In this document: positions 12,154 through 13,263 of the stretch, piece after piece | Layout: every line of letters begins with the position of its first letter | How positions within the stretch are numbered: the stretch's first letter is position 1 | Notes under the pieces: model-generated | The model's database searches: none | Told to the model about the DNA's origin: nothing | Seen by the model: the letters and a program-made list of their open reading frames with translations, nothing else | NCBI GenBank assembly: GCA_020444075.1 | Contig: JAHLLR010000017.1 | Location: forward strand, 1 to 64,000 | Reading direction: 5' to 3' | Origin: Deltaproteobacteria bacterium | GTDB lineage: Bacteria; Desulfobacterota; Desulfobacteria; Desulfobacterales; Desulfosarcinaceae | DNA: 64,000 nt | Program-made: the position numbers and the translations under genes

Positions 12154-12675
12154 ATGTCCCTAAAAGACAGACTGGAAGTATGGCTGGGTGACATTACCCA
12201 ATTGGCTGTGGATGCCATCGTCAATGCGGCCAACACGTCGCTGCTGGGTGGCGGCGGAGTGGACGGAGCCATTCATCGTGCCGCCGGACCCGAACTGCTG
12301 GGCGAATGCCGTACCATCGGCGGGTGCCCCACCGGCGAAGCGCGTTTAACCAAGGGCTACCGTCTGCCGGCACGATATGTGATCCATACCGTAGGGCCCG
12401 TATACCGGGGCCGTCCCGAAGACAGCAGACTGCTCTCCGGCTGTTACCTCAACAGCCTGACGGTGGCCATGAATCACGGGATCCGAACCTTGGCCTTTCC
12501 AGCCATCAGTTGCGGGGTTTATGGTTATCCCATTGCCGATGCCAGTAAAATTGCGGTGGATGTCTGCGCAACCTTTATGCAAACCCATGATGTGCCCGAA
12601 AAAGTGATCTTCACACTCTTCTCGGCAGCGGATTTTGACATCTACACCCGTTATCTGTCCAACCGGTCAGGATAG
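12154..12675 (+). CDS. Macrodomain protein (ADP-ribose-binding, YmdB/MacroD type)
   Basis: A 173-residue single macrodomain. Visible features: GDITQLAVDAIVNAANTSLLGGGGVDGAIHRAAGPEL, the MacroD-type loop containing the catalytic Asn/Asp region, then PTGEARLTKGYRLPARYVIHTVGPVY and the second ADP-ribose loop AFPAISCGVYGYP. Enzymes of this class remove ADP-ribose from acidic residues or hydrolyse O-acetyl-ADP-ribose. The length is typical of stand-alone bacterial forms. It follows the FmdB-like gene by 39 bases in the same direction and is probably co-transcribed. Confidence 0.93.
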   Translation: MSLKDRLEVWLGDITQLAVDAIVNAANTSLLGGGGVDGAIHRAAGPELLGECRTIGGCPTGEARLTKGYRLPARYVIHTVGPVYRGRPEDSRLLSGCYLNSLTVAMNHGIRTLAFPAISCGVYGYPIADASKIAVDVCATFMQTHDVPEKVIFTLFSAADFDIYTRYLSNRSG

Positions 12676-12816: not shown

Positions 12817-12893
12817 TCCACAGCTGAAACCAATAAGGGGTTTCCGGTCCTGAAACCGTTCGGGCCGATTTTTTTATTTCCAAGGAGGGTATC

Positions 12894-13208
12894 ATGCTTG
12901 AAGTTACACAACCGGCAGTTCAACAGATTGCCGAGTATTTCAAGGGGAAAGATGTCAAACCGATCCGGATTTTCCTCAACGAAGGCGGCTGAGGAGGCCC
13001 CGGCCTGGCCATGGCTCTGGATGAGCTATCCGATACGGACAAGTCGTTTGACATTGATGGTTTTAAATTTATCGTCAACACGGAATTTCTGGAGAAAGCC
13101 CAGCCTATCAAGGTGGATTTCCATCAGTACGGCTTCAAGCTGGACTGCGGTATCGACTTCGGCGCCGGTTGCACCAGCTGCGGCACCAAAGGGTCCTGTT
13201 GCTCCTGA
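12894..13208 (+). CDS. HesB/IscA-like selenoprotein (in-frame UGA = Sec33)
   Basis: Read through a TGA at 12990-12992, this is one 104-residue protein. It starts MLEVTQPAVQQIAEYF after a strong AAGGAGGG ribosome site (12882-12889) and continues IRIFLNEGG-U-GGPGLAMALDE before ending at TGA 13206-13208. The block GGU(G/A)GPxLxxALDE is the hallmark of the known HesB/IscA-like selenoproteins of Desulfobacterota, where Sec replaces the first conserved Cys of the A-type Fe-S carrier fold. The carboxy end DCGIDFGAGCTSCGTKGSCCS is Cys-rich and may bind iron or Fe-S clusters. Both sides of the TGA belong to the family and there is no frameshift, so this is recoding, not a pseudogene. A SECIS-like hairpin follows and a terminator closes the unit. 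selA, selB and selC must lie elsewhere. Confidence 0.9.
13000..13020 (+). promoter_or_regulatory. Candidate bacterial SECIS hairpin
   Basis: Directly after the UGA codon, CCGGCC (13000-13005) pairs with GGCT and, past a two-base bulge, GG (13013-13020), leaving a seven-base apical loop TGGCCAT at 13006-13012. The loop begins 14 bases after the UGA and has a G in its first two positions, as expected of bacterial SECIS elements read by SelB. I folded it by eye; alternative pairings of this GC-rich stretch exist. Confidence 0.5.
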
Positions 13209-13231
13209 TCGACCCGGACCAAAGTTAACTG

Positions 13232-13263
13232 AAAGGCGACCTCCATAAGGTCGCCTTTTTTTT
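13232..13263 (+). terminator. Intrinsic terminator after the selenoprotein gene
   Basis: AAAGGCGACC (13232-13241) pairs perfectly with GGTCGCCTTT (13249-13258) around a 7-base loop, followed by more T residues to 13263. A textbook rho-independent terminator 24 bases after the stop codon. Confidence 0.92.

Follow-up and report, generated by a model that had tools for sequence, protein, structure and literature searches.

The C-terminal ligand cysteines of A-type iron-sulfur carriers form a C-G-C motif. Proteins of this type, which have one N-terminal and two C-terminal ligand cysteines (PMC7144353), include IscA, SufA, ErpA and HesB (IscAnif). HesB-like selenoproteins have been listed since 2005–2006 (PMC1088965, PMC1794560), among others for Desulfovibrio, Syntrophobacter, Syntrophus and Geobacter (PMC1794560), and a 2026 review places them among the families that are known only from bioinformatics and whose role is unsettled (PMC13188914). 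TIGR01911 is the model named for the HesB-like protein in that review. For the relative in M. maripaludis, 75Se labelling has been cited (PMC11097638). The family is known in Desulfobacterota, as the initial annotation had stated (PMC1794560, PMC13188914).

Compared with these systems, the gene at 12894–13208 on the forward strand of the window, the whole stretch of 64,000 nucleotides analysed here, encodes a typical member of one selenoprotein family. Its read-through protein matches the NF038090 model (IscA_HesB_Se) with 102.5 bits (cut-off 85) from profile position 1 to 101 of 101, so that the homology claimed to run across the TGA at codon 33 is continuous over the full length of the model. 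With the NF038090 HesB-like selenoproteins of Deltaproteobacteria it shares length, Sec position, the U-x-G-P motif, the Cys-rich tail and the taxon, and it differs from them in nothing of substance. The motif at its Sec site is GGUGGP, and U-x-G-P is common to all Sec sequences. TIGR01911 (HesB_rel_seleno) has the IscA fold and the Sec position in common with the window protein and is a related but separate model; it scores 23.4 bits, below its cut-off of 66.35, and gave no match in the window's genome at E 0.001. The score for TIGR00049 (IscA, SufA, ErpA) is 33.9 bits, or 25.9 bits in the genome search, below the cut-off of 58.8, and Pfam Fe-S_biosyn reaches 25.1 bits, just below its cut-off of 26.3.

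With the A-type carriers the window protein has the fold and tail cysteines in common, but Sec replaces their N-terminal ligand Cys. An AlphaFold model based on 56 sequences (pLDDT 85, with a disordered tail of pLDDT under 50) has the IscA/HesB fold, and its best PDB matches are IscA (1r94, 1x0g and 1s98) and SufA (2d2a), with E-values of about 1e-6 to 1e-5 and TM-scores of about 0.6–0.7. Of these, 1x0g is IscA with a [2Fe-2S] cluster. AQ_1857 of Aquifex is matched as well, with Sec33 aligned to its N-terminal Cys. The Cys-rich tail that the initial annotation had pointed out is present at 13170–13205; Cys93, Cys96 and Cys102 are kept in at least 98% of the 56 aligned sequences, and Cys103 is not conserved. 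Its spacing, Cys93-x2-Cys96-x5-Cys102, is not the C-G-C of the canonical A-type carriers, and the protein therefore belongs to a branch distinct from them.

The recoded reading frame and its relatives

The frame 12894–13208 comprises 104 amino acids plus a TGA stop at 13206–13208, and its single internal TGA is codon 33 (12990–12992); otherwise it is open. Codon 33 is assigned to Sec from the NF038090 and AQ_1857 alignments and from the Cys found there in paralogues. The strong ribosome-binding site noticed before the gene is AAGGAGGG at 12882–12889, four bases 5' of the ATG, and the terminator after it is represented by a terminator-like stem-loop with a 12-bp stem and a T run at 13231–13263. 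Upstream, a further terminator-like stem with a T run at 12849–12876, a consensus match only, suggests that the selenoprotein gene is transcribed alone. The in-frame ATG at 13011 (codon 40) from which standard callers were expected to start does exist and is a possible start for a gene caller. The window gene is a clear-cut example of a selenoprotein prone to truncation by annotation. In a simple-motif scan for other in-frame TGA selenoproteins in the window, only the TGA at 12990 was convincing.

The neighbouring gene at 12154–12675 (forward strand) encodes a macro-domain protein similar to O-acetyl-ADP-ribose deacetylases. Its cluster accompanies the Sec gene in 31 loci, mostly upstream, a candidate association by synteny. 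Genes for macro-domain, FmdB-like, enoyl-CoA hydratase and nitroreductase proteins recur beside the Sec gene among relatives; in other lineages PFK/ClpB-type neighbours are found instead. A conserved functional neighbour of the Sec gene was looked for across related loci and none was found.

Matches to NF038090 occur in 165 of 297 genomes of the phylum, 125 of them above the cut-off and most with one TGA. Relatives were also sought with a TGH codon pattern, which picks up genes with either Sec or Cys and puts no constraint on the synonymous sites examined; among the matches listed, which give no totals by taxon, are Desulfatitalea, Desulfobacter, Desulfovibrio, Desulfogranum, Syntrophus and the Olavius Delta 1 symbiont. 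The closest named relatives are a Desulfosarcina sp. and a Desulfobacteraceae bacterium, followed by Desulfatitalea, and judged by this one gene the window probably stems from the Desulfosarcinaceae or a group close to them. Within the order, a homologue of the window protein is present in 105 of 116 genomes, and by our own tally the best match bears TGA at the Sec site in 98 of these 105. Among 200 distinct proteins, position 33 is Sec in 160 and Cys in 36. Cys homologues aligned with Sec33, which the initial annotation had proposed to look for, thus exist. Close homologues reveal purifying selection both upstream and downstream of TGA33. Against the nearest homologue in the order, a member of the same family with 80% identity, the downstream part has a pN of 0.107 and a pS of 0.594, and so the sequence past the stop is conserved rather than lost.

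SECIS element and selenocysteine machinery

In the region 12990–13030, suggested earlier for a SECIS search, the element is best placed at 13011–13029 on the forward strand. The predicted hairpin, identified by folding and covariation, has a 7-bp stem (AUGGCUC/GAGCUAU) and a UGGAU loop with a conserved G, and its folding energy is -8.1 kcal/mol (z -2.45). It starts 18 nt past UGA33 and contains the ATG at 13011. The start of the loop is 26 nt from the last base of UGA33, a distance within the usual range for bacterial SECIS elements. Rfam gave no SECIS match, and near the gene only sub-threshold matches to the terminator.

The core GGCUC-UGGAY-GAGYC spans the codons of Ala-Leu-Asp-Glu, and these are almost invariant in Sec genes. 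The Ala codon is GCT in 157 of 157 Sec genes but in only 8 of 28 Cys homologues (Fisher p = 1e-20), the Leu codon is CTG in 159 of 160 compared with 19 of 28, and the Glu codon is GAG in 156 of 158 compared with 9 of 19 (Fisher p = 9e-10). Codons outside the stem, such as those of Gly35, Pro36 and Leu38, vary in Sec and Cys genes alike. Across 28 diverse sequences, 94% of the cells of the helix are paired and compensatory changes occur at three pairs, twice from C-G to U-A and once from G-C to A-U. Three doubly changed pairs were equalled by none of 500 shuffles, a result that is not a probability, since the sequences are related. Sliding the stem partners destroys the pairing signal. Together, these features of the SECIS, whose synonymous sites are frozen in TGA-bearing genes only, are the strongest evidence for the predicted Sec decoding.

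The window's genome (5.59 Mb, 173 contigs, 95.75% complete) encodes selA, two selB, selC and selD, the Sec machinery whose absence would have spoken against recoding. A genome search placed selA on contig C67 and selD, with an in-frame TGA of its own, on C88, and the tRNA-Sec gene selC (anticodon TCA) lies at C148:23176-23267. The selD product (L020; G000:C88:25157-26083) is itself a selenoprotein by virtue of this TGA. SelD is known as a selenoprotein elsewhere. One selB gene is located on C27 (372 bits; L024:641-2554) and the more divergent copy directly after selC on C148 (296 bits; L023:9179-11229, which with selC corresponds to G000:C148:23176-25192). Tetranucleotide distances make contamination an unlikely origin of contig C27, which is only 5.4 kb long. 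About 11 of the 116 genomes surveyed in the order have a second selB match, and tRNA-Sec directly precedes the second-type selB in 10 of 10 loci examined. The two selB genes possibly reflect two SelB specificities.

The NF038090 match, the Sec machinery, the TGA-bearing relatives and the SECIS hairpin, together with the Cys homologues, all agree with the UGA-recoded HesB/IscA-like selenoprotein of the initial annotation, and they make it almost certain that the window gene yields a Sec protein of an already known family. For the decoding itself we propose that SelB would bind the hairpin at 13011–13029 and bring Sec-tRNA(Sec) to UGA33, a step that is strongly supported by comparison.

Exchange of selenocysteine and cysteine within the family

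On a tree of 196 proteins and 110 columns with many unresolved forks, the Cys state needs 15 changes, of which at least 9 are forced by well-supported branches. According to this tree, Cys paralogues arose repeatedly. Copies with Sec and copies with Cys stand in tandem at nine loci (L044, L047, L066, L075, L110, L122, L129, L133 and L136), and Desulfovibrio piger has a three-copy array of the family. Such tandem copies hint at heterodimers or at selenium-dependent switching. The paralogues at L088:354-677 and L137:2328-2618, both on the minus strand, adjoin intact Sec copies but themselves lack both Sec and Cys at position 33.

The Cys paralogue of the window's order forms one clade (SH-aLRT 94) and lies within a cluster of the HdrA/HdrBC/MvhD type in six of six loci examined (L023:4726-5043 on the minus strand, L203, L204 and L213-L215), sometimes adjoining selC-selB2. 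In the window's genome it is part of such an Hdr/MvhD cluster, 4 kb from selC-selB2, and in another genome (G307) it stands directly beside selC. In L213-L215 the paralogue keeps the Hdr/MvhD cluster without tRNA-Sec nearby.

Candidate role in iron-sulfur metabolism

In a 2009 survey, many Delta-Proteobacteria were reported to lack A-type carriers (PMC2682760), and the minimal anaerobic Fe-S system MIS is described as carrier-free (PMC12192291). In our survey no genome among 58 from the order reached the TIGR00049 cut-off, compared with 8 of 14 control genomes, and the matches below the cut-off in the order lie at loci of the IscA_HesB_Se family. By our own tally, the Sec form is the sole IscA-fold protein found in about two thirds of these genomes of the order; the window's genome has two, the Sec protein and the Cys paralogue. 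A three-domain NifU is encoded beside a NifS-type desulfurase on contig C102, and the SufB/D core was not found in the window's genome but in 14 of 14 control genomes. Due to the lack of a canonical carrier in the order, the presence of NifU-NifS and the lack of SufB/D, the simplest reading is that the selenoprotein fills the place of an A-type carrier in a system based on NifU. The genome survey, we infer, favours such a role.

We hypothesize that the selenoprotein most likely serves as A-type Fe-S carrier or acceptor for the NifU-NifS assembly system of this anaerobe, in which a cluster or Fe atom would be held between Sec33 and the flexible tail with Cys93, Cys96 and Cys102. The fold, the conserved residues and the absence of a canonical A-type carrier are the reasons for this assignment. 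Counting against the carrier reading are the altered tail, the Pfam score below the cut-off, the missing linkage of the Sec gene to nifUS, the carrier-free description of MIS and the finding that M. maripaludis still fixed nitrogen when its HesB-like selenoprotein was disrupted (PMC11097638). Taken as a whole, Sec decoding via SECIS combined with an A-type carrier function for NifU-NifS seems to us somewhat probable.

Alternatively, the protein may have borrowed the fold for redox or sensing purposes and, instead of carrying clusters, work as a thiol-type switch or reductase through a selenenylsulfide that Sec33 forms with a Cys of the tail. Most uncharacterised selenoproteins are believed to have redox functions (PMC13188914), the tail is mobile in the model and nearly all Sec forms have at least three Cys; however, Sec33 occupies the cluster-ligand position of IscA instead of a CxxU or UxxC motif, and no conserved redox partner gene adjoins the Sec gene, which leaves this explanation rather unlikely. 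A part in selenium or sulfur handling, in which Sec would carry a persulfide or selenide for SelD or tRNA modification, is improbable: the proximity to selC that speaks for it, both here and in G307, is that of the Cys paralogue and seems to follow from its place in an Hdr/MvhD cluster, which is retained where tRNA-Sec is not close. That TGA33 is a true stop, in a pseudogene or through a sequencing error, can be practically dismissed; nothing was found in its favour, and it is refuted by the TGA that most relatives in the order and phylum share at this codon, by the purifying selection after it and by the frozen SECIS.

Returning to the carrier function, we tentatively suggest a wider statement, which may well not hold: that the missing A-type carrier of Desulfobacterales is a Sec-ligated Fe-S selenoprotein that works for NifU-NifS with no other carrier of this fold beside it. 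Such a carrier would easily be overlooked because gene callers cut at the UGA and because the standard models score it below their cut-offs. Annotation may thus explain in part why A-type carriers have been reported as absent from Delta-Proteobacteria (PMC2682760). The frozen SECIS, the recurring Sec/Cys pairs and the order's lack of a canonical carrier were not found described in the searchable literature, outside of which most subscription papers lie. If Sec is indeed a ligand in the only A-type carrier, the iron-sulfur metabolism of a large group of anaerobes would depend on selenium, and a selenoprotein family whose function reviews call unclear would gain a testable role.
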